Below, piece by piece: positions 408 through 19,881 of a stretch of 27,961 nucleotides of DNA (positions within the stretch are counted from its first letter, which is position 1; each line of letters starts with the position of its first letter). Position numbers and translations under genes: made by a program. Below the pieces are notes generated by a model. It did not search any database. It had not been told where the DNA came from and worked only from the letters and a program-made list of their open reading frames with translations. Origin of the DNA: a virus; the IMG/VR virus record IMGVR_UViG_3300046028_004526, positions 1 through 27,961 of that record; one strand, written 5' to 3'.

Positions 408-2521
408 TGCCTCGCGTTCGCAAGAACCCTCGACGAGGGCGCCGGGTGTCGGGCGGGATAACGCTGTACCAGCGGGCGTATCTGCTGACGGGCATGAGCT
501 ACGACTTCCTGGTGGGGGACCGGGACGTAGTGGGGCGTCCGTTTGCCGATGGTGACGCGGTTCGGGTGGCCTGGGCCTCGCATTCGGCCCTGGTTGAGGG
601 GGATTGTGCCTATGGTGCGGCGCCCTGGGCCCGGTTTGTGTGCGAAAGCAAGGCAAAAACGTGGGGTTTGCGGTGCAAATATGCCCTGAAAAAGACGTAT
701 TTGGGGGGATTTTTCGAGCATGAATGGGTGTGTGAGTACGTCAAAAGCGCGGTTGAGCATGTGGATTGGGCCGAAATTCGGGCCTCGGTGAAGTTCGATT
801 GGCGCTGGATCCGCACCTGGAACGACGTGGAAGCGGTGAAAAGAGGGTGCTATTTCGACGAAAACGCGGGGTTTTATGCCGTTGGTTTCTTCCGATTGCT
901 GCGCCATTGCGTTGGCGAGTGGGCCGGGAAGCCCTTCGAGCCGCTGAACTGGCAGAAGTTCGATCTCTTGATGCCGTTGTTTGGGTGGATGCGGAAGTCG
1001 GGCACCAGGCGCTTCAGGAAGGCGCATGTGGAGATCCCGAAGAAGAACGGGAAGAGCATGATCTGCTCGGGGCTGAGTCTGAAGCTGGCCATCGCGGATC
1101 GGGAGGCGAGCGCGGAGGTGTACAACGCGGCAGGCGAGAAAGAGCAGGCCGAGATCGTCTTTGGTGAGGCTGAGAAGATGGCCAAGGCGAGTCCGTTCCT
1201 GGAGGGGCGTATCAAGTGGACCCCGAGCCGGAAGCGCGGGGAGCATTTACCCAGCGGGAGCACGTACCGGGCGCTGTCGAAAGAGCACAAGAACAAAGAC
1301 GGCTACAAAACATCGGGGTTGGTGATCGACGAGCTTCACATGCAGCAGGATCGGAAACTTTGGGACGTGCTGATCTACGGTGGCCGGACGCGGCGCCAAC
1401 CCATGTTCATTTCCATCACCACGGCAGGCGAGTACGACCCCCACGGGATTGGCTGGGAGCAGCACACGTACGCCAGGCGGCTGCTGAGTGGCGACGGTGG
1501 CATTGGGCGAGACCCGTACTTCTTTGCCTATATCCGCAGCGTGCCGGAAGAGTTGAAAGAGCGATGGATGGAGCCTGACCTGTGGTATCGGGCGAACCCC
1601 AACCTCGGGGTAACGATTGATTTTGAGCAGTTCGAAGCGGAGGCCCAGGAAGCCTTGAACATGCCGAGCAAGGTAAGCAGCTTCCAGCGGTACAGCCTGA
1701 ATATCTGGGTGCGGACGAGGGAGGCTGCGTTCAAGATTGAGAAGTGGAATTCGAGGGCGGTGCAGGGTGATGGGTTGGAGCGGGTGAGGATGGTGGAGGA
1801 ACTGGCCCAGGGGCGGAGGTGCTTTGGCGGGCTGGACCTTGCGGCGGTGAACGATTTGAGTGCGGCGGCGCTGTGGTTCCCACCCAACAACTATGAGGTG
1901 AGTCTGGAGTCTGGAGGGGAGAGTCTGGAGGAAGGGGAAGAGGAAGCCGACCTGCTTAAGGCTTACTCGATTGACGATTGCCATTTGCTGCTGACTTGGT
2001 TCTGGTTGCCGGTGGAGAACATCGGGGATCTGGAGAAGCAGCACAACGCGCCCTACAGCCAGTGGGCGGATGAGGGTTGGCTGAACCTGACGCCGGGTGA
2101 GGTGGCGGACTACAAGACGATCCGGCGCGACCTGGTGGAGATTCACCGGCGCTTCGAGCCGGAGCGGTGGAACTATGACAAGTGGAGCGCGGCGCAGTTG
2201 GTGAGCGACTTGATCGAGTATGACGATCTGCCGATGGTTGAGTTTGGCCAGGGCTTTGGGTGGATGAATGCGCCGACGAAGGAGTTCGAAAGGCTGATGA
2301 TCCAGGAGCGGATCATCCATGCGGCGCATCCGACGATGGACTGGATGGTGGGCAATTGCCAGATGGTTGCCGATGGCGAGGGCAAGGTGAAGCTGGTGAA
2401 GCAGGGGAAGAAGATTGCCTACAAGATTGACGGGCCGATTGCCGCCGTGGAGGCGCTGGACGGGGCTGTGCGGTGCGCGGCTGGGGTGGTTCTTACAGGA
2501 AGTTCGGTTTATGTAGGTTGA
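407..2521 (+). CDS. terminase large subunit (HK97-like)
   Basis: This is the 704-residue ATPase/nuclease motor that packages DNA into proheads. Visible motifs are a Walker A-like loop E-I-P-K-K-N-G-K-S at residues 209-217, a Walker B L-V-I-D-E-L-H at 305-311, an S-I-T-T-A-G coupling motif near 336-341, and a nuclease segment beginning G-G-L-D-L-A near 474-479 with a later Y-D-K-W. The GTG start at 407 has GGAGG at 392-396. The first ~140 residues precede the point where the family normally aligns (around E-W-A-G-K-P-F at 171-177) and I do not recognise them, which makes the protein longer than usual. Residues 499-508 are encoded by a heptad array (1901-1931) of the type otherwise found between genes, between the nuclease Asp and the rest of the nuclease fold. 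Call is firm; the N-terminal extension is unexplained. Confidence 0.93.
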   Translation: MPRVRKNPRRGRRVSGGITLYQRAYLLTGMSYDFLVGDRDVVGRPFADGDAVRVAWASHSALVEGDCAYGAAPWARFVCESKAKTWGLRCKYALKKTYLGGFFEHEWVCEYVKSAVEHVDWAEIRASVKFDWRWIRTWNDVEAVKRGCYFDENAGFYAVGFFRLLRHCVGEWAGKPFEPLNWQKFDLLMPLFGWMRKSGTRRFRKAHVEIPKKNGKSMICSGLSLKLAIADREASAEVYNAAGEKEQAEIVFGEAEKMAKASPFLEGRIKWTPSRKRGEHLPSGSTYRALSKEHKNKDGYKTSGLVIDELHMQQDRKLWDVLIYGGRTRRQPMFISITTAGEYDPHGIGWEQHTYARRLLSGDGGIGRDPYFFAYIRSVPEELKERWMEPDLWYRANPNLGVTIDFEQFEAEAQEALNMPSKVSSFQRYSLNIWVRTREAAFKIEKWNSRAVQGDGLERVRMVEELAQGRRCFGGLDLAAVNDLSAAALWFPPNNYEVSLESGGESLEEGEEEADLLKAYSIDDCHLLLTWFWLPVENIGDLEKQHNAPYSQWADEGWLNLTPGEVADYKTIRRDLVEIHRRFEPERWNYDKWSAAQLVSDLIEYDDLPMVEFGQGFGWMNAPTKEFERLMIQERIIHAAHPTMDWMVGNCQMVADGEGKVKLVKQGKKIAYKIDGPIAAVEALDGAVRCAAGVVLTGSSVYVG
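1901..1931 (+). repeat. heptad array AGTCTGG type, inside terL
   Basis: Units are AGTCTGG, AGTCTGG, a divergent AGGGGAG and AGTCTGG, followed by AGG. The same 31-bp layout (four heptads plus AGG) recurs at 11113, 11930, 12039 and 12517. Here it is translated as S-L-E-S-G-G-E-S-L-E inside the nuclease half of the large terminase. Confidence 0.85.
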
Positions 2522-2600
2522 CCACGGAGGCACGGAGAGGGAGGAGAAGAGAAGAGAAGAGAAGAGGATTCACCACGAAGAGCACGAAGGTGCACGAAGG
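2520..2600 (+). repeat. degenerate purine-rich tandem repeats between terL and helicase
   Basis: Three adjacent simple-repeat blocks fill the gap. An ACCACGGAGGCACGGAG block lies at about 2521-2537, an AGAAG pentamer run at about 2544-2565, and a CACCACGAAGAGCACGAAGG-type block at 2571-2600 reading CACGAAG several times. All are purine-rich on the transcribed strand. The helicase ribosome-binding site (AAGGAAAGAAGGAA) follows directly. No gene is seen here. Confidence 0.75.
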
Positions 2601-2615
2601 AAAGGAAAGAAGGAA

Positions 2616-4544
2616 ATGAAAGCAGAGCAGTATGATAGCCGGTTTGGTCCGGCGGGTTCGTTGAAGTTGTGGCCCTATCAAGCACGGGATGTTATTGCGA
2701 TCCGGTCCGCATTCTGGTCGCACTCCTGGGTGCTTTACTCCCTTTCGACTGGAGCGGGCAAGACGGTGATGTTTTGTCACCTTCTGCGGGAATGGATGTT
2801 TGCCGATCTGCGGGTCTGTGTTGTGGTGAACAGCAGGCACCTGGTTGACCAGACCAGCGCGGCGCTGGGTGATGTGCCTCACGGCATCATTCGCGGAGGT
2901 GTTAAGCCTGAGCCAGAATACTCTGTGCAGGTGGCGACCGTGCAGGCACTCGCGGCGCGGCCAGCCGAGAACCGCTTTGATGTGTATATCGTCGATGAAG
3001 CGCACCATGCGGCGGCGGCTAGCTATCAGAAAGTATTGAGCGGAGCCAAGCACGTGCTTGGGTTGACCGCAACACCCTTCCGAAAAGATGGGATTGGGAT
3101 TGGTTCGGCAGGTTTCACGACCCTGATTCAAGGGCCTGGAATTGCCGAATTGACCCCCGAGTACCTGAGCGAGGCTGAATTGTATGGCCCATCCAACGAC
3201 ACCCCAAAAGTAGACCTAAAGGGCATCAAGAAGGACAATGGTGATTTTGTTGCTGGCGAAGAACTTGCGGGGCGTGTCAACCAGAAGACCATCACGGGGA
3301 GCGCGGTGGACCATTACATCAAGCGGGCGAACGGAAGCCGGGCGCTGGTTTACTGCGTGACCCGCAAGCACGCGCGCGACGTTGCCAGGGCCTTTGGTCG
3401 GGCGGGCATTGCCACGGCGTACCTTGATGGCACGATGGGGGACACGCAACGGCGTGACGTGTTGAATGCGCTGCGTGATGGCCGGATGAAGGTGGTTGTT
3501 TCCTGTGAGCTTATCGGTGAGGGGCTGGACGTTCCATCCGTCGGCTGCGTGATCCTGCTTCGGCCCACTCAGTCACTCCGGGTATTGATGCAGCAGGTGG
3601 GCCGTGGTTTGCGCAAGACAGCACTGCCCGGTAGCAAGATCGTAGTACTCGATCATGTCGGCAACTTCGAGCGCAACGGCTGGTATCCCATGGACGCACT
3701 GAGCTACAGCCTTGAGGGCAAGGCGAGGAATATGCGCGAGGGCGAGCGGCGCGGGGTGCGGCAATGCTCGGCCTGCGGTCGGATCGCCGGGGACGGCAGA
3801 TCTGGCTGTGAGGCTTGTGGGCGGGCGATGCTGGAACCAGTGGAGGTTAATGGGGAGTTGGTGCGACTTGGGCCGGTGAACCTGGTTTGGTGGTCTGGAA
3901 ATTATCGGACATCGAAAGTAATAAATGGAAAATCAATAATTGTAACTCTTGGTAGAGATCGCGTGAAGGCGCAAGCGGGGATTGATGCGGCAAATGCCCG
4001 CTGGGAAGCGGAAGGCGGATGGCCTGATACCGAGGAAGATTTTAGAAAATGGTTAGAAGTTGGCCCGAAACGCGAAATGAATCCATTGCGTCTTTCGGTA
4101 CCTAAAACAAGAAAATGCTCGACCCACAAGAACATCTGCGGCAAAGATTTAACAATTTACCTTGGTTCCGATCCTATAAAGGCTCAGGCGCGTGTGGACG
4201 CGGCCAACGCGCGATGGGAGGCGGCGGGGCGCGTGTGGCCGGACACGGAAGAAGAGATCAGGGAATGGCTTGGCGTGGGCCCCAAAACAGGAAAGGCACC
4301 ACTGAACCTAAGCATCACCGCACGAGGATGGTGTAATTCATCCAAAAATATAGGAGGGAAAAACATAAATGTTTTGATCGGGTCCGATCCAATAAAGGCG
4401 CAAGCGGCGATTGATGCTGCGAACGCGCGATGGGAAGCAGCGGGCCGCGTGTGGCCGACGACAGAGAACGAATTTAGATCATGGCTTGGTGTGGGACCCA
4501 AGCGTAAGTCATTCAAGGACACGAGCAAAAGCGGGAAGGACTGA
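2616..4544 (+). CDS. SF2 DEAH helicase with zinc ribbon and three C-terminal repeats
   Basis: This is a 642-residue superfamily 2 helicase of the COG1061/SSL2 kind. It shows Walker A S-T-G-A-G-K-T (44-50), V-D-E-A-H-H (126-131), motif III L-T-A-T-P-F (150-155), and motif VI Q-Q-V-G-R-G-L-R (326-333). A four-cysteine ribbon follows at C384, C387, C398 and C401. Then come three repeats whose G-P-K ends fall at residues 483, 555 and 627, exactly 72 residues apart. Each contains G-K-x-I-x-V-x-L-G, K-A-Q-A, A-A-N-A-R-W-E-A and W-P-x-T-E. The repeat pattern resembles AP2 or integrase Arm-type DNA-binding modules; that is inference. Base composition drops in parts of the repeats (about 3900-3950, 4330-4380), unlike the helicase core. 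A helicase between terL and portal is out of place for packaging genes; it may serve replication, recombination or anti-defence. Confidence 0.88.
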   Translation: MKAEQYDSRFGPAGSLKLWPYQARDVIAIRSAFWSHSWVLYSLSTGAGKTVMFCHLLREWMFADLRVCVVVNSRHLVDQTSAALGDVPHGIIRGGVKPEPEYSVQVATVQALAARPAENRFDVYIVDEAHHAAAASYQKVLSGAKHVLGLTATPFRKDGIGIGSAGFTTLIQGPGIAELTPEYLSEAELYGPSNDTPKVDLKGIKKDNGDFVAGEELAGRVNQKTITGSAVDHYIKRANGSRALVYCVTRKHARDVARAFGRAGIATAYLDGTMGDTQRRDVLNALRDGRMKVVVSCELIGEGLDVPSVGCVILLRPTQSLRVLMQQVGRGLRKTALPGSKIVVLDHVGNFERNGWYPMDALSYSLEGKARNMREGERRGVRQCSACGRIAGDGRSGCEACGRAMLEPVEVNGELVRLGPVNLVWWSGNYRTSKVINGKSIIVTLGRDRVKAQAGIDAANARWEAEGGWPDTEEDFRKWLEVGPKREMNPLRLSVPKTRKCSTHKNICGKDLTIYLGSDPIKAQARVDAANARWEAAGRVWPDTEEEIREWLGVGPKTGKAPLNLSITARGWCNSSKNIGGKNINVLIGSDPIKAQAAIDAANARWEAAGRVWPTTENEFRSWLGVGPKRKSFKDTSKSGKD

Positions 4545-4547
4545 AAC

Positions 4548-4757
4548 ATGGCTGAATATCTGCGACCGAAACCCGGTGGGGCTTTGTGTCCTGATTGCGG
4601 TGAGCTCACGGCGGCGTATCGGGTTTTGCCGGTGCAGGACGGGTGCCGGGTTCGGTATCACCGGTGTATCTGCTGCGGGTATTTGTTCAAGAGCGTGGAG
4701 AAGGCAATGGACAATGGACAATTGACAATGGACAACGAGGAAAGGAAAACGGGATGA
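4548..4757 (+). CDS. small zinc-ribbon protein
   Basis: This 69-residue protein of unknown function has two Cys pairs, C-P-D-C-G near residue 14 and C-I-C-C-G near residue 40, spaced as in a small zinc ribbon. Such phage proteins often act as nucleic-acid-binding or transcription-modulating factors, but nothing here fixes a role. It starts 3 nt after the helicase stop with AAGGA at 4536-4540 as a ribosome-binding site. Its C-terminus (M-D-N-G-Q-L-T-M-D-N) is encoded by a heptad array (4704-4738), so the array has either extended the gene or eroded its end. The stop overlaps the next start as ATGA. Confidence 0.65.
   Translation: MAEYLRPKPGGALCPDCGELTAAYRVLPVQDGCRVRYHRCICCGYLFKSVEKAMDNGQLTMDNEERKTG
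4704..4738 (+). repeat. heptad array ACAATGG type
   Basis: Successive units read GCAATGG, ACAATGG, ACAATTG, ACAATGG and ACAACGA. The array is translated as the tail of the zinc-ribbon gene and supplies the DNA just upstream of the GAGGAAAGG ribosome-binding site for the gene starting at 4754. Confidence 0.85.
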
Positions 4758-4897
4758 GCATCATTGATGAAATGCGAGAGAAGGCGAGCGATCTCCAGGG
4801 TGTCGGGGAGTACTGGCTGGCGGAGCATCTGGAGGCGTGGGCTGATCGACTGGCGGCATCCGTCGCGCTGGTCCCAATCGCGGAGACCGAGGTATGA
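4754..4897 (+). CDS. hypothetical 47-residue protein
   Basis: I do not recognise this small acidic helical protein. It begins M-S-I-I-D-E-M-R-E-K and contains A-E-H-L-E-A-W-A-D-R-L, which looks like one amphipathic helix. The ATG at 4754 overlaps the preceding stop (ATGA), with GAGGAAAGG at 4737-4745 as a good ribosome-binding site. Its own stop overlaps the next start in the same way. The frame is open further upstream, but only through the heptad array, so the internal ATG is preferred. Translational coupling with both neighbours supports a real gene. Confidence 0.6.
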   Translation: MSIIDEMREKASDLQGVGEYWLAEHLEAWADRLAASVALVPIAETEV

Positions 4898-5103
4898 GTG
4901 ACACGACGGGGTGGACGAAATTAAGCAACGTCTGTTACGAGAAGGTTATTGGTGACCGACCATTTCTTTGTGTGGAATGGTACGGAGTTTGGTGGCTCAG
5001 GATATGCACTGGAAGCGTTGAACTTGCCACCCGCCCGACCCTGCGCGAGTGCCAGCTACTCGCGCACGCAACCGCCCGGCTATGGGCTGGAGAAAAGGAA
5101 TGA
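4894..5103 (+). CDS. hypothetical 69-residue protein
   Basis: This small protein is unrecognised. It has an aromatic centre (residues V-E-W-Y-G-V-W-W-L around 27-35) and a C-terminal helix E-C-Q-L-L-A-H-A-T-A-R-L-W. No signal peptide or membrane helix is evident. It is coupled to the upstream gene by an ATGA overlap with GGAG about 10 nt upstream of the start. It belongs to the cassette of tiny genes between the helicase and the portal. Confidence 0.55.
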   Translation: MSDTTGWTKLSNVCYEKVIGDRPFLCVEWYGVWWLRICTGSVELATRPTLRECQLLAHATARLWAGEKE

Positions 5104-5175
5104 ATGGCGCTTGGGCAGAAGACGAAACATTCGGCTGGTCCGCGACTTTCTGACCGCGTGCTTGGAGGATACGAA

Positions 5176-5784
5176 ATGAAACTCACCCACGCCCTCGGCG
5201 CGACCGTCATCGTCGCCGTCGTCGCTATGGCCCAGACCATGGGCAGCACCGACAAAATCAGCCGCGTCCGCGAGGGGATACAGCACGTACCCGCACCGGA
5301 CGGCAACGTCATCCCGTACCAGAATTACGCCGCGTATGCATGGCACGAGCCGCCCGCGACACCGGACCGGCCGGACGGCACGATAGACGCCACGGGCACG
5401 CGGGTGCTGCGCTGGCCCATCCTCGCCTATTACCCGTCAAGCCCTAACCCTATCGTGGTCTGGTATCACGACGGCGCGTTCCGTGCCAGCAATGGCAACC
5501 GCTGGGGCGGGCCTTCGCGGTGGGCCTACGTGCGGATGGATGAAGAAGTCTGGAACGCCACCAAACGCCAGTGGGAGATACCGGGACTCGGCTACGTGCC
5601 GCCCGAACCGACAGCGCCGCCAACGGGCAAGGCGGGCGTACATATGGACGCGGTGCAAGGCCAGTGGATGGTGGACGACCTCAAGCGGTCATTTACCACG
5701 ACGCAGATACAGGACATGATGGACGCCTCACCATACGATGAACCAGACACGGGAGCGCCGGAAGCAGGCGCGGGAGAAGAATGA
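5176..5784 (+). CDS. putative exported or membrane-anchored phage protein
   Basis: This 202-residue protein begins M-K-L-T-H-A-L-G-A and has one hydrophobic stretch (about residues 6-19, A-L-G-A-T-V-I-V-A-V-V-A-M-A). That fits a Sec signal peptide or an N-terminal anchor. The mature part is rich in Trp, Tyr and Pro (for example Y-A-A-Y-A-W-H-E-P-P) and ends in an acidic tail. I do not recognise a family. The start at 5176 is chosen because GGAGG at 5164-5168 lies 7 nt upstream; an ATG at 5104 directly after the previous stop is in frame but would bury the signal-like segment. Codon choice is noticeably more C-rich than in the neighbouring helicase and portal, which suggests separate acquisition. 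Confidence 0.6.
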   Translation: MKLTHALGATVIVAVVAMAQTMGSTDKISRVREGIQHVPAPDGNVIPYQNYAAYAWHEPPATPDRPDGTIDATGTRVLRWPILAYYPSSPNPIVVWYHDGAFRASNGNRWGGPSRWAYVRMDEEVWNATKRQWEIPGLGYVPPEPTAPPTGKAGVHMDAVQGQWMVDDLKRSFTTTQIQDMMDASPYDEPDTGAPEAGAGEE

Positions 5785-6092: not shown

Positions 6093-6351
6093 CCGACCGC
6101 GATACCGAAACGGGATTCTGGTGTACGCAGCCAAAGACATCCACGACGATGTGCGTGATGGTATGGATCCCGATTGCCTGTTTGTCGGGCTGGAAAAGTT
6201 TGAGGCGCTGAGTGCAGATCGCGACGAGTGGGAAAAGCGCTGCAAGCGTCTGGTTGGTGTGTTGTCTGTTTACGGACTCAGCCCGCAAGCCGTGGCGATG
6301 ATCGCGGAGGGCAGCATGGAAGCCGAGAACGACTGGAGGCGGACGCTGTGA
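6085..6351 (+). CDS. hypothetical 88-residue protein
   Basis: This is an unrecognised soluble-looking protein. It contains F-V-G-L-E-K-F-E-A-L followed by a charged helix (D-R-D-E-W-E-K-R-C-K-R-L) and then V-A-M-I-A-E-G. This helix plus I-A-E-G pattern resembles the C-terminus of the protein encoded just upstream. The ATG at 6085 overlaps the upstream stop by 8 nt, with GGAGGG at 6071-6076 in a good ribosome-binding position. The frame is open further upstream without a better start. Confidence 0.55.
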   Translation: MGDRPRYRNGILVYAAKDIHDDVRDGMDPDCLFVGLEKFEALSADRDEWEKRCKRLVGVLSVYGLSPQAVAMIAEGSMEAENDWRRTL

Positions 6352-6470
6352 ATTTGCGCGCACTTTGGATCCAGTTCTGGCACGAATTGAGACAGCAGAA
6401 CCGGCACGCGACCGGCAAGCGGAGGAAGGCACGGAGCGCGGGGAATGTGAAGCATCGGAATTTTCGGTGA
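6348..6470 (+). CDS. possible 40-residue basic peptide
   Basis: A GTG start overlaps the upstream stop (GTGA) and opens a 40-codon frame. The peptide is strongly basic, with W-I-Q-F-W-H-E-L-R followed by K-R-R-K-A-R. A Shine-Dalgarno-like GGAGG lies at 6333-6337. The short length and absence of recognisable family make this tentative. It could be a small nucleic-acid-binding peptide or a chance frame that ends at the heptad repeat. Confidence 0.35.
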   Translation: MNLRALWIQFWHELRQQNRHATGKRRKARSAGNVKHRNFR

Positions 6471-6486
6471 AGGTTGAAGGTTGAAG
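6467..6486 (+). repeat. heptad array GAAGGTT type
   Basis: Two complete GAAGGTT units and a partial third follow the stop region of the preceding short gene. The rest of the gap to 6628 holds the hairpin at 6513-6534 and a degenerate repeat at 6585-6615; I see no further gene in it. Confidence 0.6.
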
Positions 6487-6512: not shown

Positions 6513-6534
6513 GGACAGGCAGGAATGCCTATCC
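6513..6534 (+). repeat. REP-like palindrome with GGAA loop
   Basis: GGACAGGCA (6513-6521) and TGCCTATCC (6526-6534) can form a 9-bp stem with one C-A mismatch closing a GGAA (GNRA-class) tetraloop. There is no T-run after it, so it is not an intrinsic terminator. It resembles dispersed palindromic elements of bacterial genomes. Confidence 0.55.
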
Positions 6535-6615: not shown

Positions 6616-6628
6616 AAAAGAGAACAGC

Positions 6629-9146: not shown

Positions 9147-9181
9147 GAATTATGAATTACGAATTGCGAATGACGAATGAC
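9147..9181 (+). repeat. heptad array GAATTAT type (five units)
   Basis: Exactly five period-7 units: GAATTAT, GAATTAC, GAATTGC, GAATGAC, GAATGAC. The array begins 2 nt after the portal stop and ends immediately before the GGAGGG ribosome-binding site of the protease gene. Confidence 0.9.
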
Positions 9182-9897: not shown

Positions 9898-11114
9898 ACG
9901 CATTACGTCAGAAACGGGCTAAGGCCCTGAGCGATGCACAGGCGATTGACGCCCGTGCGCATGGTGAGAACCGGGACATCAACGCGGAAGAGCGCGGGCA
10001 GTTTGAAGCGTTCATGGCGGATTACACCGCTTTGGGCGATCAGATCCAGCGCAAAGAAATGTTGGAGCGTGAGACGCTGCGCCTGGCCGAGTTGACCAAT
10101 GAGCAGGTAGACCTTAACAGCGGCGTCGAACATCGCTCTGTTACCCCTGAATCTGAACTTCGCGCCCGTCAGTACAAGGCGTATGAGGGCTGGTTGCGCA
10201 GCGGCCAGATGGGTCCGGAATTCCGCGCGCTTCAGGTGGATCAGGATGTGACCGGCGGTTACCTCCAGACCCCTCAGCAGATGGTGACCCAGTTGCTCAA
10301 GGCTGTTGATAACCAGGTCTTCATGCGGCAGCTTGGCACCGTCTATCGCGTGCCGAACGCCGAGAGCCTGGGTGTTCCCAGCCTTGACGCTGACCCGGCT
10401 GACCCGACCCGCACCACGGAAATTCTTTCCGGCGATGAAGACAGCACCATGGCCCTGGGCAAGCGCAAGCTGACCCCGACGCCCTATGCCATTCGCCTGA
10501 AGTCTTCCCAGACCCTGCTTCGGAAGGTGCCCTCGGCTGGCGCCCTTATCGAAGAGCGCCTGGCCTACAAGATGGCTGTGGTTGACGAGAACGCTTTCAT
10601 GAACGGCGACGGCGGCGATTCGCCCCTGGGCGTGTTCACTGCAAGCGCGAATGGTGTGCCCACCAGCCGCGACTACAACACCGACATGACCACCACGGCC
10701 CCGACCTTCGACGGGCTGTTGGGCATGAAGTACACCCTGAACGAAGCCTATTGGGGCAACGCTGGAACCCGGTGGATCTTCCACCCCGACTGCATGCTGA
10801 AGATCGCGAAGATCAAGGACGGTGAAGGCCGCTACCTGCTGCGCGAGAACGTGGCCTCGGGCGAGGGTGACACCATCTTCGGCATCCCCGTGGCGCTGAG
10901 TCGCTACGCCCCGAACACCTTCACCGCGGGCCTGTATTTCGGGATCCTCGGTGACCTGAGTTACTACTGGATCGCCGATGCGCTTGACCTTCGGATCCAG
11001 CGGGTGAACGAGCTCTACGCCGCGACCGACCAGGTTGGTTTCTTCGCGCGCGCGGAAGATGACGGCATGCCGGTGCTTGCCGAGGCGTTTGTTCGCGGGA
11101 AACTGGCTTCATAG
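9891..11114 (+). CDS. major capsid protein (HK97 fold) with delta domain
   Basis: This 407-residue shell protein starts with a charged helical delta domain (about residues 1-80, with Q-K-R-A-K-A-L-S and F-M-A-D-Y-T-A-L-G). It continues into the HK97 core with D-V-T-G-G-Y-L-Q-T-P near residue 118, S-Q-T-L-L-R, and G-I-P-V-A-L-S near 343. The delta domain acts as internal scaffold and is removed by the protease encoded just upstream. Codons are richer in C at third positions than in flanking genes, consistent with high expression. The TAG stop shares its AG with the first heptad of the downstream array. Identification is firm. Confidence 0.93.
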   Translation: MLNALRQKRAKALSDAQAIDARAHGENRDINAEERGQFEAFMADYTALGDQIQRKEMLERETLRLAELTNEQVDLNSGVEHRSVTPESELRARQYKAYEGWLRSGQMGPEFRALQVDQDVTGGYLQTPQQMVTQLLKAVDNQVFMRQLGTVYRVPNAESLGVPSLDADPADPTRTTEILSGDEDSTMALGKRKLTPTPYAIRLKSSQTLLRKVPSAGALIEERLAYKMAVVDENAFMNGDGGDSPLGVFTASANGVPTSRDYNTDMTTTAPTFDGLLGMKYTLNEAYWGNAGTRWIFHPDCMLKIAKIKDGEGRYLLRENVASGEGDTIFGIPVALSRYAPNTFTAGLYFGILGDLSYYWIADALDLRIQRVNELYAATDQVGFFARAEDDGMPVLAEAFVRGKLAS

Positions 11115-11143
11115 TCTGGAGTCTGTAGTCCGGAGTCTGTAGG
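11113..11143 (+). repeat. heptad array AGTCTGG type (four units + AGG)
   Basis: Units AGTCTGG, AGTCTGT, AGTCCGG, AGTCTGT then AGG. The capsid stop codon TAG overlaps the first unit by two bases. Confidence 0.88.
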
Positions 11144-11159
11144 AAACAAAAACAATCAA

Positions 11160-11208: not shown

Positions 11209-11646
11209 ATGAGCTTTTTGAAGAACAACGTTTTGTCGGTAGGCGAAGCGGCGGGCGCTGCGAATACCACGGCACTCACCAGTGAGATCGTTGACATGAG
11301 CGGTTTCGACACCGTGACGTTCATCGCCTTGACCGGCGACGTGACGAGCGGGTGCGTGCTGGGCCTGAACATCGAGCACGGCGACGTGGCTGCTGGCAGC
11401 GACATGGCCGACACCACGATCAACGCAGCCTTCACGGCTGGCGCGAGTGATGCGGACAGCAAGATCCTGGCCGTGGAACTGCACAAGCCGACCAAGCGCT
11501 ATGCCCGCGCGGTGCTGACCCGCACCACGCAGAATGCTGTGGTGGGCGGGATCATCGCGATCCAGTCCGAGCCGAGCAAGGCGCCAGTGACCCAGGACGC
11601 GACCGTGATCGATCACGAGATCGGTATCAGTTCGCCGTCCGCTTAA
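11209..11646 (+). CDS. putative minor structural/decoration protein
   Basis: This 145-residue protein is not assigned to a named family. It lacks charged coiled coils and is rich in Ala, Thr and beta-forming residues (for example F-D-T-V-T-F-I-A-L-T and V-V-G-G-I-I-A-I). Its place directly after the major capsid gene is where many HK97-like phages encode a capsid decoration or stabilising protein; that is inference from position. AAAGGA at 11195-11200 is the ribosome-binding site, preceded by a heptad array and a 9-bp hairpin. It is not translationally coupled to its neighbours, unlike the core head genes. Confidence 0.6.
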   Translation: MSFLKNNVLSVGEAAGAANTTALTSEIVDMSGFDTVTFIALTGDVTSGCVLGLNIEHGDVAAGSDMADTTINAAFTAGASDADSKILAVELHKPTKRYARAVLTRTTQNAVVGGIIAIQSEPSKAPVTQDATVIDHEIGISSPSA

Positions 11647-11737: not shown

Positions 11738-11765
11738 GAATTATGAATTATGAATTATGAATTAT
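11738..11765 (+). repeat. heptad array GAATTAT type (four perfect units)
   Basis: Four identical GAATTAT units end just before the AAAGGGG ribosome-binding site (11767-11773) of the next gene. Same family as the arrays at 9147 and 15372. Confidence 0.9.
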
Positions 11766-11779
11766 GAAAGGGGATGGTG

Positions 11780-12040
11780 ATGCGTGTGAAGGTTCACCTG
11801 CTGAAGCGGGTTGCGGGGCCGGATGGGAATTTTCCGTCCGGTCGGACGATTGAGGTTTCTGAGGCGCAGGCGAAAGACCTGGTGGCTGATGGTGCTGCGG
11901 AACGGATTGACGCGATGGTGCCGTATGTGAGTCTGGAGTCTGGAGTCCGGAGTCCGGAGGAAGAGAAGGCACCAAAGAGCAAGCGGGAGACGGCGGTTGA
12001 TAAGGGTTCTTCGAAGCGGGAAAAGGCGGACGAAAAGTAG
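11780..12040 (+). CDS. small phage structural-region protein, hypothetical
   Basis: This 86-residue protein has a short ordered N-terminal domain. The pattern is V-K-V-H-L-L-K followed by F-P-S-G-R-T-I-E-V-S, then A-K-D-L-V-A-D-G-A-A-E-R-I. This looks like the small conserved phage proteins encoded between capsid and connector genes, whose role is unknown. A Lys/Glu-rich disordered tail follows. A heptad array (11930-11960) encodes V-S-L-E-S-G-V-R-S-P-E-E at the junction of the two parts. The ATG at 11780 is preferred over the in-frame ATG at 11774 because AAAGGGG ends 6 nt upstream of 11780. The TAG stop shares two bases with the next heptad array. Confidence 0.65.
   Translation: MRVKVHLLKRVAGPDGNFPSGRTIEVSEAQAKDLVADGAAERIDAMVPYVSLESGVRSPEEEKAPKSKRETAVDKGSSKREKADEK
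11930..11960 (+). repeat. heptad array AGTCTGG type, translated
   Basis: Units AGTCTGG, AGTCTGG, AGTCCGG, AGTCCGG then AGG. It is read in the same frame as the copy inside terL (S-L-E-S-G), at the start of the disordered tail. Confidence 0.88.
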
Positions 12041-12069
12041 TCTGGAGTCTGGAGTCTGGAGTCTTTAGG
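12039..12069 (+). repeat. heptad array AGTCTGG type (four units + AGG)
   Basis: Units AGTCTGG, AGTCTGG, AGTCTGG, AGTCTTT then AGG. It overlaps the upstream TAG stop by two bases, exactly as at 11113. Confidence 0.9.
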
Positions 12070-12077
12070 AAACAAGA

Positions 12078-12094
12078 CGCGCGTTGCGCGGGAG
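12078..12094 (+). promoter_or_regulatory. leader mini-hairpin plus Shine-Dalgarno
   Basis: CGCGC (12078-12082), loop GTT, GCGCG (12086-12090), followed at once by GGAG (12091-12094) and the ATG at 12105. Near-identical leaders occur at 12553 and 15409. Confidence 0.65.
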
Positions 12095-12515: not shown

Positions 12516-12516
12516 G

Positions 12517-12547
12517 AGTCTGGAGTCCGTAGTCCGGAGTCTGGAGG
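12517..12547 (+). repeat. heptad array AGTCTGG type (four units + AGG)
   Basis: Units AGTCTGG, AGTCCGT, AGTCCGG, AGTCTGG then AGG. It begins one base after the preceding TAA stop. Confidence 0.9.
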
Positions 12548-12552
12548 AAGAA

Positions 12553-12569
12553 CGCGCTTTGCGCGGGAG
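12553..12569 (+). promoter_or_regulatory. leader mini-hairpin plus Shine-Dalgarno
   Basis: CGCGC (12553-12557), loop TTT, GCGCG (12561-12565), then GGAG (12566-12569), 8 nt before the ATG at 12578. Same design as 12078-12094. Confidence 0.65.
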
Positions 12570-14827: not shown

Positions 14828-14830
14828 GAC

Positions 14831-15370
14831 ATGGGAACAGTTGCGAATCTTATTATTCCGAAGCCGGAAATTTACCTCGGGCCTGTTGCCCAGGCGATGC
14901 CGACGATTACCGGGACGCTCGGCGGAACGGTGAGCACTACGGGCTTCACGAGCGTGGGCTTCCTCAGTGAGGGATCCAAGGCGTCTCTCGAGTTCATGGC
15001 GGAGCGGCGGAAGTTTCGCCCGATGAATAAGCTGACGCCGATTGGCGCGGCGAACATCACCAAGGGCGCAACGATCACGCTTACCCTGGCGGAGAGCGAT
15101 GTGGCCGCGTGGGAAGTGGCCATGGCCTCAGCTGCTGAAACGGGCGGGGTGGTGACGGACAACGACGACGGCACGATCAATTTCTATCAGATGCTGATCA
15201 TTACGGCGGCCAAGGTGTGGCAGTTCCGCATGGTTGCGGCGGATGAGAACGCCAAGAGCGAACTGGACGACACGCAGGAAGAGCAGATCGAGGTGGTCTT
15301 CGAGGCTTATGAATATGAGTCTGGGAGCGATGGCGAACGCGTTTGGAAGTGCCACACGCGGACGGCGTGA
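14831..15370 (+). CDS. major tail tube protein
   Basis: This 179-residue protein is placed between the tail terminator and the chaperone genes, where the tube subunit is expected. It shows a beta-rich sequence with G-F-T-S-V-G-F-L-S-E-G, K-G-A-T-I-T-L-T-L-A-E-S-D and a C-terminal acidic strand, I-E-V-V-F-E-A-Y. These patterns fit tube proteins that stack as hexameric rings around the tape measure. AAGGAG lies 9-14 nt upstream of the ATG. The assignment relies largely on gene order and fold-like pattern. Confidence 0.78.
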   Translation: MGTVANLIIPKPEIYLGPVAQAMPTITGTLGGTVSTTGFTSVGFLSEGSKASLEFMAERRKFRPMNKLTPIGAANITKGATITLTLAESDVAAWEVAMASAAETGGVVTDNDDGTINFYQMLIITAAKVWQFRMVAADENAKSELDDTQEEQIEVVFEAYEYESGSDGERVWKCHTRTA

Positions 15371-15371
15371 T

Positions 15372-15399
15372 GAATTATGAATTGTGAATTATGAATTAC
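15372..15399 (+). repeat. heptad array GAATTAT type (four units)
   Basis: Units GAATTAT, GAATTGT, GAATTAT, GAATTAC, then a partial GAATGA. It begins one base after the tail-tube stop. Confidence 0.9.
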
Positions 15400-15408
15400 G
15401 AATGAAGA

Positions 15409-15421
15409 CGCCCTGCGGGCG
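15409..15421 (+). promoter_or_regulatory. leader mini-hairpin
   Basis: CGCCC (15409-15413), loop TGC, GGGCG (15417-15421), then GGAATAGGAGAA as ribosome-binding region. The arm sequence differs from 12078 and 12553, but stem length, loop length and placement are the same. Confidence 0.62.
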
Positions 15422-15441
15422 GGAATAGGAGAATATGAGCA

Positions 15442-15912
15442 ATGAGTATTTCTAGTCCGGTTATCAAGATTGGGATCACTGCTTCGGAGTTGATCGCGGA
15501 TGACACGCTGAGCACGACCGCGCGGACGGTGCAGCACACGCTGTTCGATGAGACGATCACTCCGAGTCCGGCGACTGTGTTCTCGGGTGCGGTTTACGCG
15601 CTGATCGCTGGTGCGAAGACCCTGGACCTTCGCGCGCTGCGGACGGTGGCGGGTGGCTCGGGCGACGGCAACGGTCTGAAGGTACAGGGGTTCTATTTCA
15701 AGAACCTGGGCGCGAACCCGATGACCATCGTGGCCGGTGCTTCGAATGGGTATCTGATTTTCGGCACGAGCGGGAGTGTGATCGTTCCTGCGGGTGGCGC
15801 GCTTTGCCTTTCCCTGGCGGACGCGAGCGCAGATGTTGACGCGACCCACAAGACGATTGACGTGAGCGGCACACTGGTGCAGACGTTTGAAGCGGCTGTG
15901 ATCCTCGGATGA
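15442..15912 (+). CDS. putative tail accessory protein, hypothetical
   Basis: This 156-residue protein is unrecognised, with a Gly/Ala-rich, beta-predicted sequence (F-Y-F-K-N-L-G-A-N-P-M-T-I-V, L-I-F-G-T-S-G-S-V-I-V-P-A-G-G-A). The F-K-N-x-G-x-N-x-M-T-I-V segment recalls virion surface proteins that carry a small jelly-roll; this is inference. It sits between tube and chaperone genes, behind an array and a mini-hairpin, so it looks like a later insertion in an otherwise standard tail operon. AGGAGA at 15427-15432 serves the ATG at 15442; another ATG at 15435 leads only to a six-codon frame. Confidence 0.6.
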   Translation: MSISSPVIKIGITASELIADDTLSTTARTVQHTLFDETITPSPATVFSGAVYALIAGAKTLDLRALRTVAGGSGDGNGLKVQGFYFKNLGANPMTIVAGASNGYLIFGTSGSVIVPAGGALCLSLADASADVDATHKTIDVSGTLVQTFEAAVILG

Positions 15913-15917
15913 TGGCT

Positions 15918-15934
15918 GAAGGATGAAGGCTGAA
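15918..15934 (+). repeat. heptad array GAAGGAT/GAAGGCT type
   Basis: GAAGGAT, GAAGGCT and a partial GAAG unit directly precede the AAGGA ribosome-binding site of the chaperone gene. An ATG inside the array (15923) is in frame with that gene but is probably not its start. Confidence 0.6.
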
Positions 15935-15946
15935 GAAGGAAAGAGC

Positions 15947-16384
15947 ATGGACGAGGATGGCAATACGGTGACGCCCAGGACGGACGATCAGATTCTGTCT
16001 GGCGTGGTGCCGGGACACGGGGCCATGGTTCTGGGTGGTCGGTCGTATCCGGTGCGCGAGGCGAGCAATGCGCGGGCGCGTGATATACGGCTGGCGATTG
16101 CGCAGTTTGGCGCGGATGCGGCCAAGTGGCGCGAGGATGACCCCAGGACGCTGGACCGGATGGAGACGATGCTGGATCAGTCGATCCGGCGCTTCTCCCC
16201 CGAGATTGAAGCGGACTGGGAACACATTGCCGAGAACGCCACGGACACGGAACGCTTGACGGCGATGGCGATCATCCGCGAGGTGGTGATGCTCCCTTTT
16301 ACGACGCTGGCGGGGATGGTGCCGGTGGCCCCTCCAGCGGGCAACCGGAAAACAAAACGGGCTGGTCGGAAGTCTACGACCTGA
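15947..16384 (+). CDS. tail assembly chaperone, short form (gpG-like)
   Basis: This 145-residue protein of the lambda gpG type binds the tape measure during tail assembly. It is helical, with A-R-A-R-D-I-R-L-A-I, a T-L-D-R-M-E-T-M-L-D-Q helix and a C-terminal E-R-L-T-A-M-A-I-I-R-E-V-V segment, and ends in a basic tail. The start at 15947 is supported by AAGGA at 15936-15940; the ATG at 15923 lies in repeat DNA. It ends normally at 16384, but a slippery site at 16294 allows a longer product. Location directly before the tape measure is diagnostic. Confidence 0.85.
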   Translation: MDEDGNTVTPRTDDQILSGVVPGHGAMVLGGRSYPVREASNARARDIRLAIAQFGADAAKWREDDPRTLDRMETMLDQSIRRFSPEIEADWEHIAENATDTERLTAMAIIREVVMLPFTTLAGMVPVAPPAGNRKTKRAGRKSTT

Positions 16385-16569
16385 TTCAGCATGAGTATGG
16401 CGCGAGCCTGCTGGAACTGGATCGGGAATGGACGCCGGGTATCACTCAGTTGATGCTGCGGCGGATGTCGGAACGGTACAAGAAGCAGCACAAGAAGTCG
16501 AAGAAGAAGCCGGGCACGATAGAACTAAGCGAAGACCGGATCGAGGGTTCGATCTGGGAGAAGGGTTAG
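15947..16569 (+). CDS. tail assembly chaperone, -1 frameshift product (gpGT-like)
   Basis: A second frame runs from the slippery site to 16569 and has no start of its own in a sensible place. Read by slipping back one base after TTT at 16298-16300, the product has 118 zero-frame residues. These are followed by 89 from the -1 frame: a Gly-rich linker (Y-D-A-G-G-D-G-A-G-G-P-S-S-G), W-S-E-V-Y-D-L-I-Q-H-E-Y-G, L-M-L-R-R-M-S-E-R-Y, and a Lys-rich stretch. This total of 207 residues matches the architecture of gpGT chaperones, where the T part recruits tube subunits. The tape measure starts 3 nt after the stop. Coordinates span both frames; the join is at base 16300, used twice. Confidence 0.85.
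16294..16338 (+). promoter_or_regulatory. -1 programmed frameshift signal
   Basis: CCCTTTT (16294-16300) is a canonical X-XXY-YYZ heptamer in the zero frame (ctC-CCT-TTT). Five nucleotides later a stem can form: GCTGG (16306-16310) with CCAGC (16334-16338), one C-T mismatch, then GGGG (16312-16315) with CCCC (16329-16332). The spacer length is ideal for stimulating -1 slippage. Confidence 0.85.
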
Positions 16570-16572
16570 CCG

Positions 16573-18327
16573 ATGGCATTCAAGGCCGGTGAAATAGTTT
16601 TCCAGATTACCGCTGAAACCAAGGCGCTGAACAAGGCCATGGGCGACGTGAGTGCGAATGTGCAGAAGAACTTCGGCAACATCGCGAAAACGGTGGGCAA
16701 CACCATGATGGGCGTTGGCGCGGCGGTGACGGGGGCTGTTGCTGGAATCGGCTATAAGGCACTGAGCGCGGCGGAGGAAGTGAGCAAAGCCTCAACGAAG
16801 ATAGTGGCGGCGCTGGGCCTTCCAAAGGAAGAGGCGGAACGGTTTCGCCAGATGATCAGGGAAGTGTACGGCGACAACTTCGGCGAGAGCCTGACGGACG
16901 TGGGCGTGGCTATTCAGGAGATCGCTGTGGGTCTGGCGAAAGTCGGCGTTATGTCTAATGAGGAGATCGTGAAGGCCACAGAAAACGCTTACATGCTGCG
17001 GGACGCTTACCAGGTGGACATCGGCGAAAGCGTAGGCGCGGTCACTGGCCTGATGCAGAACTTTGGACTAACGAGCCAACAGGCTTTTGATTTTTTGACC
17101 CTGGGGATGCAGCGGGGCATGAACACCTCGGGGGACTTCCTGGAATCCATTGGCGAATACTCCACCCAGTTTGCCGAGGGTGGGGCGACTGCTGCGCAGT
17201 TCTTCAGCATGATGGAGACCGGCATGCAAAGTGGCATGCTCGGCACGGACAAGGCGGCGGATGCGTTCAAGGAATTCCGCGTGCGGCTGCTGGACGGATC
17301 TAAGGCCACGGCAGGCGCGATGGCCATGATCGGGCTGGACATTGGCCAGATCACAGCGCAGATCAACGCGGGAACCTTGACCACCGCAGACGCCTGGGAT
17401 CTGGTGATCGAAAAGCTACGGGGGACGAAGGATCAGGCGGTCCAGCTTCAGGCAGGCGTGGGTCTGATCGGGTCGCAGTTCGAGGATCTGGGGGCCAAGA
17501 CCGTGCTGGCGATGACCATGGGCATGACTTCCATGGACGAAATGAAGGAATCCACAGCAAACCTTTCCGAGCAATATAAGACGCTCGGAAACGACTTGGA
17601 GGGCGTGAAGCGGAAGATGGTTCTGGCTTCGGAAGCCATGGGCCATGCGATTGCCCCGGCGCTCGGCAGAATATTGGATGCGGTGGCTCCGGTGATTGAG
17701 AAGTTTGCCGCATGGGTTGAGAAGAATCCAGAACTTGCAGCAACGCTTGGTGTGGTGGCTGGTGCGCTGGGTGCGCTGATACTTGCTGCTGGCATTGTGA
17801 TCAAAATTGCGGCGGCGGTGGCGGAGTCTTGGATTCTTGTGAAGGCTGCGTTTGCGATTGTGGCAACTGCGGCCTCGGGCCTGGCGGCTGCGATTGGTTT
17901 GCCGGTGTGGGCGGTGGTGGCGATTGTGGCGGCGGCGACGGCGGCGATCTACTACTACTGGGATGAACTAAAATATGGTCTTGGCGTTGTGTGGCGCGCC
18001 ATTTCATCGGCATGGATGACTATATGGGGTCCGATCATTGATGGGATTATGTGGCTGCAAAACATCGGGCTGAGTGTGCTTGAAAAGGCACAGGGCCTGA
18101 TTGGCTGGGGCGGCGGTGGTGGCGGCGGTCCACAGTACGCGATGGCGGGGCCTGGTGGTGGTGGTCCGCAGTACGCGATGGCTGGCCCAGGTGGAGGCGG
18201 GGGCGGTGGCGGCTTCGGTGGCGGTATCAGTCTGACTTTCAATGTTTCGGGCATTACGGATCCGGGCGCTTTCTCTCGGATGGCGGCTGAACAGCTTCAG
18301 CTTGAACTCAGATCGCGTGGTCTCTAA
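16573..18327 (+). CDS. tail tape measure protein
   Basis: This 584-residue protein sets tail length. It has the TP901-like core (helical residues about 85-330, with repeated Met/Gln/Gly patterns such as S-I-G-E-Y-S-T-Q-F-A-E-G-G). Hydrophobic segments follow at about 395-420 and 430-465 (A-A-L-G-V-V-A-G-A-L-G-A-L-I-L-like and W-A-V-V-A-I-V-A-A-A-T-A-A-I). After these comes a Gly-rich stretch containing the direct repeat G-P-Q-Y-A-M-A-G-P-G-G-G-G twice. At roughly 0.15 nm per residue the tail would be about 90 nm; that is an estimate. No lytic transglycosylase or peptidase motif is seen. Its stop overlaps the next start by one base. Confidence 0.9.
   Translation: MAFKAGEIVFQITAETKALNKAMGDVSANVQKNFGNIAKTVGNTMMGVGAAVTGAVAGIGYKALSAAEEVSKASTKIVAALGLPKEEAERFRQMIREVYGDNFGESLTDVGVAIQEIAVGLAKVGVMSNEEIVKATENAYMLRDAYQVDIGESVGAVTGLMQNFGLTSQQAFDFLTLGMQRGMNTSGDFLESIGEYSTQFAEGGATAAQFFSMMETGMQSGMLGTDKAADAFKEFRVRLLDGSKATAGAMAMIGLDIGQITAQINAGTLTTADAWDLVIEKLRGTKDQAVQLQAGVGLIGSQFEDLGAKTVLAMTMGMTSMDEMKESTANLSEQYKTLGNDLEGVKRKMVLASEAMGHAIAPALGRILDAVAPVIEKFAAWVEKNPELAATLGVVAGALGALILAAGIVIKIAAAVAESWILVKAAFAIVATAASGLAAAIGLPVWAVVAIVAAATAAIYYYWDELKYGLGVVWRAISSAWMTIWGPIIDGIMWLQNIGLSVLEKAQGLIGWGGGGGGGPQYAMAGPGGGGPQYAMAGPGGGGGGGGFGGGISLTFNVSGITDPGAFSRMAAEQLQLELRSRGL
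18132..18196 (+). repeat. direct repeat encoding Gly-rich G-P-Q-Y-A-M-A-G-P units
   Basis: CAGTACGCGATGGC occurs twice, about 36 bp apart, flanked by GGT/GGC/GGA runs. It encodes two copies of P-Q-Y-A-M-A-G-P-G-G-G-G near the end of the tape measure. Such repeats can change copy number by slippage. Confidence 0.7.
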
Positions 18328-18785
18328 TGGCTCATAGCATGACGATAGACGGGATCGACCTGGGCGGGGCGAACTATGGCTTTGTGGTGGAGGCGAATGA
18401 TTTCGTTACGCCGCCTGACGCTCGGGTGAACCGGGACCGGCTTGCTATGGCGGACGGGGACGCGGCGCAGGGTTCGACGTTTGACGGGCGGACGGGTGTG
18501 GTGTCGGGGGTGGTTGTGGCGACGAGCTACGAGAACCTACTGGCACAGAAAGAGAATATCCAGCGGGTTACCTGGCTCACGCAGTCGGGCAGCAAGGTGT
18601 TGACGTTCGACGCGCACGCGGGAAAGCAGTGGCGCGGGCGGGTGCTTAAAGTTGCCTATTCGAATGAGACCCCGGTGACGGTGGATCTGGTGCTGACCCT
18701 TTACGCCCCGCAGCCCTGGGCCGAAGCGAGCACAGCGACGACGGTGACGGCGGCGAGCATTCCCACGAATCCTTCCACCATTTAG
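18327..18785 (+). CDS. distal tail protein (Dit), N-terminal part
   Basis: This 152-residue protein has the N-terminal beta-barrel pattern of siphovirus Dit proteins: I-D-G-I-D-L-G near the start, a central R-T-G-V-V-S-G-V-V-V, a helix around Y-E-N-L-L-A-Q-K-E-N-I-Q-R, and the closing Y-S-N-E-T-P-V-T-V-D-L-V-L-T-L-Y-A-P-Q-P-W. Dit forms the hexameric hub joining tube to baseplate. The protein stops just where the C-terminal galectin-like domain would begin, and that domain is encoded by the next gene. Confidence 0.82.
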   Translation: MAHSMTIDGIDLGGANYGFVVEANDFVTPPDARVNRDRLAMADGDAAQGSTFDGRTGVVSGVVVATSYENLLAQKENIQRVTWLTQSGSKVLTFDAHAGKQWRGRVLKVAYSNETPVTVDLVLTLYAPQPWAEASTATTVTAASIPTNPSTI

Positions 18786-18795
18786 AAAGAGAAAG

Positions 18796-19119
18796 ATGAC
18801 ACCAGGCGGAACACAGCTTACAGACTGGGTGCTGACGATCAAGAATGGCGCGACCGGGGCGGCGTCGGTACAGGTGTCGAACGCTTACACGGGGGAGAGC
18901 GTGGTGTGGGCGAATGCGCTGGCGGTGAATGCGTGGCTCAGGCTGAGCAGTGAGACGCAGCGGTGCGAGGTATCGACGGACAGCGGGGCGACCTGGACGC
19001 GACGAAATGAGAATGTGACCGGGTTGATTCCGCAGATTCAAGGTGGGGTGAGCAATGTGATCACGATCACGGGTTTGGTTGGGGCGACGGCGGATTATTC
19101 TTACACGGCGAAAGGTTAG
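18796..19119 (+). CDS. distal tail protein C-terminal (galectin-like) domain as separate gene
   Basis: This 107-residue protein resembles the C-terminal jelly-roll domain of Dit proteins: W-V-L-T-I-K-N-G-A near the start, then V-Q-V-S-N-A-Y-T-G-E, L-S-S-E-T-Q-R-C-E-V-S-T-D-S-G, G-L-I-P-Q-I-Q-G-G-V-S-N-V-I-T-I. It has its own ribosome-binding site (AAAGAGAAAG) and ATG, 10 nt after the preceding stop, in a different frame. The frame is also open upstream across the junction, so a frameshift-made fusion cannot be excluded. It probably assembles with the N-terminal part as a two-chain Dit. Confidence 0.78.
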   Translation: MTPGGTQLTDWVLTIKNGATGAASVQVSNAYTGESVVWANALAVNAWLRLSSETQRCEVSTDSGATWTRRNENVTGLIPQIQGGVSNVITITGLVGATADYSYTAKG

Positions 19120-19122
19120 CTG

Positions 19123-19845
19123 ATGGCCCAGCGAGCAATACATAAGGTTGCGGATCGGTGGTTCGCGCAGCTTAATACGACGGTGAACTCGGCTGTTACA
19201 AGCTGGGTTTTGAAGGCTTCGGGCGCTACCGGGTTGCCGGTGCCGAGTGCGCTTCAGGATGTGGTGGTGCATTGTGGGACGGAGAAGGCGCTTGTCACTG
19301 CGATTGCTGTGGACACACCCTCGGCAGGGCTGGACACCCTGACGGTGACACGGGGCTATGGCGGGAGCACGGCGGCAAGCCACTCGGCGGATGCTTATGT
19401 GGGCCACTACTACTACCGGGAACATCACAACGACCTGGCGGAGCGGCTGGCGCAGTTGGAGTATTTCCTGTGGGGCCAGTTCGGCAAGACGAACGGGCGA
19501 CTTCAGAGCGGGCTTTATGTGCAGGCTGAGGGTTCGCCAAGCCTCACGGTGGAGATCACGGCGGGGGGAGGCTTCGCTGTGGGTCAGCCTGTGGCGCTTA
19601 GGACCACGGCGACGAAGACATTTATCGCACCCGTGACGAACCCGCGCATTGACGTGATCCAGATTGACCAGGAGGGGAACATCGAGGTGAAGGCGGGGAC
19701 AGAGGCGGGATCACCGGCTGCGCCAAGTGTGGACGCGGACGCGCTGAAGTTGTGTGAGATCTATTGTCGGGTGGGGATGACCTCAATCAAGGACACGGAC
19801 GACGCGAGCAACGGCTACATCACGAATACGGATAATTGGCTGTGA
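19123..19845 (+). CDS. baseplate/tail protein with beta module
   Basis: This 240-residue protein is not assigned to a named family. Residues about 18-95 show the module T-L-T-V-T-R-G-Y-G-G-S-T-A-A-S-H-S-A-D-A-Y-V preceded by a strand pair, the same pattern as the insertion in the connector at 12950. The rest is beta-rich, with V-E-I-T-A-G-G-G-F-A-V-G and a P-R-I-D-V-I-Q-I-D segment seen in several baseplate and receptor-binding upper domains. A helix, N-D-L-A-E-R-L-A-Q-L-E, may trimerise it. It lies 3 nt after the Dit C-terminal gene. A role as a tail-tip structural subunit is inferred from position. Confidence 0.68.
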   Translation: MAQRAIHKVADRWFAQLNTTVNSAVTSWVLKASGATGLPVPSALQDVVVHCGTEKALVTAIAVDTPSAGLDTLTVTRGYGGSTAASHSADAYVGHYYYREHHNDLAERLAQLEYFLWGQFGKTNGRLQSGLYVQAEGSPSLTVEITAGGGFAVGQPVALRTTATKTFIAPVTNPRIDVIQIDQEGNIEVKAGTEAGSPAAPSVDADALKLCEIYCRVGMTSIKDTDDASNGYITNTDNWL

Positions 19846-19846
19846 T

Positions 19847-19881
19847 GAAGGGTGAAGGGTGAAGGGTGAAGGGTGAAGGGT
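19847..19881 (+). repeat. heptad array GAAGGGT type (five perfect units)
   Basis: Five identical GAAGGGT units start one base after the preceding TGA. The Tal gene ribosome-binding site (CGAGG) and ATG follow at 19895-19911. Confidence 0.92.

Follow-up and report, generated by a model that had tools for sequence, protein, structure and literature searches.

Period-7 repeat arrays in the late operon of a siphophage as probable insertions of host-type heptad elements

The window, by which we mean the whole 27,961-nt stretch of DNA that was analysed, represents the structural half of a siphophage. Its genes were named by Pfam and encode TerL, portal, prohead protease, an HK97-type capsid protein, a minor tail (tape-measure-like) protein and a lysozyme-type endolysin. 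The same phage is present in IMG/VR as a 43,448-nt contig, whose compared parts match the window at 100% identity from window base 17 up to its end. This contig adds helicase and primase genes and an ORF weakly matching the phage-integrase N-terminal domain, and on account of these genes, including the weak domain match, the phage is apparently temperate. We found 12 period-7 arrays in the window, all on the + (coding) strand and belonging to at least four families: AGTCTGG (five arrays), GAATTAT (three), TGAAGGN (three) and GACAATG (one). The arrays are located as follows.

1900–1934, + strand: AGTCTGG element, four heptads (the third degenerate) and a GAGGAAG tail, inside the TerL ORF
4705–4735, + strand: GACAATG-family array, in the C-terminal codons of ORF 4548–4757
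6468–6486, + strand: TGAAGGT array of 2.7 units, beginning at the TGA stop of the possible ORF 6228–6470
9147–9181, + strand: GAATTAT-family array of 5 units, degenerate, between the portal and protease genes
11113–11145, + strand: AGTCTGG element with the tail AGGAAAC, the capsid-gene stop TAG being its first bases
11738–11768, + strand: GAATTAT array of 4.4 units, 91 nt past the stop of ORF 11209–11646 and 5 nt before the next start
11929–11963, + strand: AGTCTGG element, read as VSLESG, inside ORF 11774–12040
12039–12071, + strand: AGTCTGG element, its start overlapped by a stop TAG
12516–12550, + strand: AGTCTGG element, directly after a stop TAA
15370–15403, + strand: GAATTAT-family array, overlapping the stop TGA of ORF 14831–15370
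15910–15935, + strand: TGAAGGC/A array, overlapping the stop TGA of ORF 15442–15912
19846–19884, + strand: TGAAGGG array of 5.6 units, immediately after the stop TGA of ORF 19123–19845

With a fixed score cut, 11 arrays were detected versus a mean of 0.02 (maximum 1) in 50 dinucleotide-preserving shuffles, which rules out a chance origin and bears out the claim of the first-pass annotation that several families of period-7 arrays coexist in one phage. The same scan of the window gave zero arrays for periods 4, 6, 8, 11, 12 and 15–19, neighbouring periods being essentially absent. The common purine-rich orientation proposed earlier was also confirmed, as the coding strand is the purine-richer one for 12/12 arrays (purine fraction 0.56–0.83). 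All arrays are confined to ~18 kb of the 43-kb contig, the scan of its remainder revealing none. Moreover, a second record, IMGVR_UViG_3300044950_000601, is 100% identical over 21 kb, departing from the window only before base 17, and carries all 12 arrays unchanged; an artefact of a single assembly, the possibility raised at the outset, is therefore unlikely. Unit numbers are the same in the window and in this only second record, whose DNA is 100% identical.

Nine of the 12 arrays lie at gene junctions, where all of them had been expected, but three are inside ORFs: 1900 in the terminase ORF, 11929 in the 88-aa ORF 11774–12040, and 4705 in ORF 4548–4757. The proposed proximity to a stop codon holds for eight of the nine junction arrays, which begin no more than 3 nt from the upstream stop, the exception being 11738 (91 nt); one of these eight (6468) depends on ORF 6228–6470, which our codon-usage caller did not support. 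The upstream stop is often part of the first array unit (TAGTCTGG, TGATGAATT, TGATGAAGGG). As for the opposite end, arrays 9147, 11738, 15910 and, roughly, 19846 do end just before a ribosome-binding site, as had been suggested, but 12039, 12516 and 15370 are separated from it by a small GC hairpin, and 11113 by a longer one. The small hairpins are the following.

12078–12090, + strand: perfect 5-bp GC hairpin with a 3-nt loop, between the 12039 array and GGGAG
12553–12565, + strand: perfect 5-bp GC hairpin with a 3-nt loop, after the 12516 element
15409–15421, + strand: perfect 5-bp GC hairpin with a 3-nt loop, after the 15370 array

These are the only three perfect 5-bp GC hairpins (3-nt loop, then GG) in the window, and each is situated a few nt 3′ of an array and before a ribosome-binding site, a coincidence of ~3e-7 by placement. 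Hairpins in this form were not seen beside arrays in the bacterial genomes checked (G094, G006, G070 and G047). The idea that array and hairpin together make up a host element was thus rejected, since the arrays of G094, G006 and G070 have no such hairpin, and three hairpins by the G047 arrays sit in CGCGCGG-rich runs. An Rfam search of the window gave no family at threshold.

The five AGTCTGG copies share one layout, in which four heptads are followed by an in-register GAGGAA-type (AGGAA) tail, ~35 bp altogether. The layout is strict in four copies, and the TerL copy has one degenerate unit. Being composed of heptads and a non-repeat tail, they are not simple arrays; no common tail was detected in the remaining families (GAATTAT, TGAAGGN and GACAATG). 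The TerL copy falls within 26 extra residues after the FPP motif, and these residues are missing in five TerL homologues. The copy in ORF 11774 is in the same reading frame as the TerL copy (VSLESG), and the homologue of this ORF in the relative L007 is shorter by 12 residues, its C-terminus aligning loosely.

Relatives of the phage were gathered by searches with the capsid and ORF 12572. The comparison of orthologous junctions called for in the first-pass annotation showed that the gene order from the capsid to ORF 12572 is largely kept in relatives, while matching junctions bear no arrays; since the relatives are distant (MCP 45–48%), this comparison cannot date or delimit inserts. The junction between ORFs 12105 and 12572, which is 56 nt long and bears an array in the window, measures −1, −1, 0 and 9 nt in four relatives and 69 nt, with no array, in L200; in L007, the counterpart of ORF 11774 is located between these two ORFs. 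The capsid–ORF 11209 junction is long in several relatives too, again with no array, so that arrays do not account for all of the gaps. In one relative (L201), two arrays from another family are present near start codons, and the capsid junction of another (L285, Hydrogenedentota bin G088) bears inverted repeats GGGACAGACCCC...GGGGTCAGTCCC and ACCGGCGATGGCGCCGGT as well as AAGGACAGC repeats (a 9-nt repeat). Given these other-family arrays and other small repeats, gaps of the same kind seem to have been filled in each lineage with its own repeats.

AGTCTGG arrays were found on more than 100 contig stretches from many phyla, with arrays of other families alongside. Genes of bacterial contigs were predicted with our own codon-usage gene caller, which had been checked against the window. 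Between codirectional genes, 36 chromosomal arrays were on the same strand vs. 38 on the opposite one, in contigs that were chosen for holding AGTCTGG and where loci from one genome are not independent. Among same-strand chromosomal AGTCTGG copies, 11/12 start from −4 to +6 nt relative to a stop (1.2 expected), and among opposite-strand copies 0/16 start there. Coding-strand copies begin at stop codons in the phage and in chromosomes alike. Furthermore, the chromosomal unit number peaks at 4–5, also in the families not used for retrieval.

Two other phage contigs were informative. In a Mu-like phage, 14 arrays of several heptad families occupy junctions and all lie on the coding strand; another contig, which has tail genes and integrase-like ones, bears 16, likewise of several families at junctions, in mixed orientation. 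We thus discarded the idea that phage arrays always keep to the coding strand, because other contigs are mixed. The notion that such a set of arrays is unusual within one virus stood only in part, as at least two other phage contigs combine several heptad families at their junctions; the window thus belongs to a class and is not unique. Carrying host-type heptad repeats is unusual for a phage but not wholly new.

The anatomy of the AGTCTGG element, including the tail, is common to the phage and chromosomal copies. We defined a tail signature as two AGTCNGG units plus GAGGAAGA. It occurs in 5/68 Hydrogenedentota, 0/247 Acidobacteriota and 0/246 Planctomycetota genomes sampled (Fisher p 2e-5, with genomes treated as independent), and in IMG/VR it was found in this phage's other record and in no further contig. 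The AGGAA tail is present in 6/11 arrays of G094, 6/15 of G047 and 6/23 of CAIPEB, and in 0/47 arrays from two Acidobacteria, one Chloroflexota genome and other viruses. The window segment 12516–12550 differs from a copy in G094 (Hydrogenedentota) by one base in ~36. The search of host genomes with the arrays, recommended earlier, has thus matched the tailed four-heptad AGTCTGG form in Hydrogenedentota chromosomes. One Planctomycetaceae genome outside the sample of 246 also has the tail, which is therefore a good but not exclusive host pointer.

The Hydrogenedentota lead is further backed by a capsid match and a REP-like hairpin. A capsid protein with 47% identity is encoded in a Hydrogenedentota bin, on a contig of just 3.4 kb, so that its binning is uncertain; the capsid of Streptomyces phage Chymera shows ~42% identity. 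No genome with all the phage families was found: of 34 genomes with AGTCTGG, 3 have GAATTAT and 3 have TGAAGGG. The flanking parts contain no tRNAs that might hint at a host. A REP-like hairpin at window positions 6514–6534 (GACAGGCAGGAATGCCTATCC) has exact copies in the Hydrogenedentota genome G073, and its CCTGTCC versions occur in a few Planctomycetota. A Planctomycetota host was considered because of this hairpin and dismissed, as the matches are few, the exact CCTATCC form is in Hydrogenedentota G073, and none of the 246 sampled Planctomycetota has the AGTCTGG tail. Judging from sequence comparisons, the phage probably infects Hydrogenedentota-like bacteria.

Short tandem heptanucleotide repeats are described in chromosomes as the intergenic cyanobacterial STRR and long simple sequence repeats, to which both PMC4692102 and PMC4679880 refer; a fixed length combined with a conserved tail was not found among their described features. 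Unlike REPs, whose palindromic units are associated with RAYT transposases, the phage arrays are not palindromic in sequence and have no known enzyme. REP/REPIN are small, non-autonomous and scattered over bacterial genomes (PMC3116915), and the phage-type heptad elements resemble them in these three traits.

The heptamers GGGAATC of Xanthomonas and GGGGA(T/C)T of Nostoc are dispersed, mostly intergenic period-7 repeats with four units commonest, and their coding-strand copies lie <50 bp from stops, some overlapping the stop; Xanthomonas GGGAATC is near the 5′-neighbouring ORF in both orientations (PMC4692102). Similarly, the phage tandem heptads are dispersed, AGTCTGG has four units in each copy, and the upstream stop adjoins the array, as in the 8/9 phage junction arrays (≤3 nt) and 11/12 chromosomal AGTCTGG copies above. 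The Xanthomonas and Nostoc genomes each have one G-rich family, with many convergent pairs and none on the two Xac plasmids (PMC4692102). The phage, in contrast, has several families with different units; GAATTAT and GACAATG lack GGG and AGTCTGG has just GG, unlike the quadruplex-able G-runs, and instead of convergent inverted pairs all 12 arrays are on one strand. TAACTGA heptamers occur at gene junctions in a preferred orientation in distant lineages (Beggiatoaceae, some Cyanobacteria and Bacteroidetes); most of them precede start codons, and a Shine–Dalgarno site is usually lacking (PMC4679880). The phage heptads are also direct repeats at gene junctions with a preferred orientation, but they differ from the single TAACTGA sequence in having AGTCTGG, GAATTAT, TGAAGGN and GACAATG units, and most of them follow stops and leave a ribosome-binding site.

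Taken together, the results lead us to the view that the arrays are probably host-type dispersed heptad elements inserted into the phage's late operon, the phage being apparently temperate and its hosts probably Hydrogenedentota-like bacteria. Their source would be the small dispersed elements of four to five 7-nt units littering bacterial chromosomes, with a fixed non-repeat tail in the case of the AGTCTGG family. The elements would have come from the host, probably during a prophage stage, through some copying mechanism, and selection would have kept those insertions that left the upstream stop and the downstream start usable. The arrays probably serve no essential function for the phage. 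By analogy, we assume that the GAATTAT, TGAAGGN and GACAATG families originated in the same way. We prefer insertion of pre-formed elements because of the shared tail, the fixed length, the array-free relatives and the terminase copy, and such insertion explains the data better than slippage, required spacers or gene-insertion scars. No mobilising enzyme or target duplication was identified for the arrays. What also counts against insertion is that 12/12 arrays are co-oriented vs. ~50:50 in chromosomes, which passive insertion does not predict (p ~2e-4, provided that copies are independent, and this may not hold). Among the roles suggested in the first-pass annotation, recombination substrates shared with the host came closest: the sharing is supported by the tailed four-heptad AGTCTGG form in Hydrogenedentota, the presumed host group, but the recombination itself is not.

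The uniform orientation would suit late-mRNA elements under selection, i.e., purine-rich, weakly structured post-stop tracts acting in multi-frame ribosome stop, re-initiation or protein binding. All 12 arrays share the coding strand, eight of those at junctions adjoin stops, six arrays have stop codons in all three frames, and a hairpin plus a GGGA(G) ribosome-binding site comes after three of them; translational regulation was also proposed by MacGregor for the TAACTGA repeats (PMC4679880). However, relatives do without arrays, three arrays lie within ORFs, AGTCTGG units are free of stop codons in every frame, the sequence differs between families, and the orientation is mixed in chromosomes and other phage contigs, which makes selected RNA elements an unlikely alternative. 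Translation spacers in the sense of required spacing are likewise disfavoured, as in some cases the orthologous genes lie close together or overlap with no array between them; the arrays may nevertheless have a compatible or co-opted translational role.

Local replication slippage would start from a chance heptad close to a ribosome-binding site and build the respective array on the spot. Period 7 is reported to be the most abundant long repeat class, for which slippage has been suggested (PMC4692102, PMC4679880), and some arrays include degenerate units, but five distant copies have the family, the four-unit length and the non-repeat tail in common, the unit number has its mode at 4–5 with no decay from 3, and a near-identical copy resides in a bacterial chromosome; slippage is thus highly improbable. 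We give as little credence to the arrays being gene-acquisition scars or recombination joints that flank accessory genes and move single genes by exchange. It is true that two direct AGTCTGG copies bracket ORF 12105, and that ORFs 11774 and 12105 are in reverse order in L007, the three junctions involved carrying arrays in the window. Nevertheless, L205 and L213 apparently have the window order and no arrays (the ORF 11774 counterpart being assigned by position and size), so that L007 is the odd one, and rearrangement breakpoints, at which L007 hinted, were set aside. Several arrays adjoin core head–tail genes, and the TerL copy flanks nothing. The landing marks of gene insertion suggested earlier find no support in view of the largely same gene order in relatives without arrays and of the terminase array, which is extra coding sequence.

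Bacterial chromosomes have long been known to contain heptanucleotide repeats, for which no way of spreading is known. Thanks to the compact operon of this phage, its array-free relatives, the tail and the terminase copy, dispersal and slippage become distinguishable. A wider and rather doubtful generalisation of the insertion reading is that four-heptad arrays could be widespread, unrecognised small mobile elements with an insertion preference for stop codons, which would be copied by a host enzyme, enter temperate phages and be able to add coding sequence to essential virion genes. As the geometry (4–5 units, the 5′ end at a stop) is repeated in different phyla and families, a common mechanism becomes testable. 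The tail signature also provides a lead for linking uncultured phages to hosts.

Several minor features were also noted. The post-TerL junction (window 2515–2622) contains other low-complexity purine repeats (GAGAA, CACGAAGG). Before the portal gene, the window has an extra helicase and small genes, where phage Chymera has one small gene. The ResIII/DEAD helicase at 2616–4544 bears three similar repeats in its C-terminal part (SDPIKAQARVDAANARWEAAGRVWP), and a second ResIII helicase is encoded in the other contig part, L034. Finally, window positions 1–16 differ from the otherwise identical IMG/VR contig, which is G-rich there, possibly due to a strain difference or a contig-end effect.
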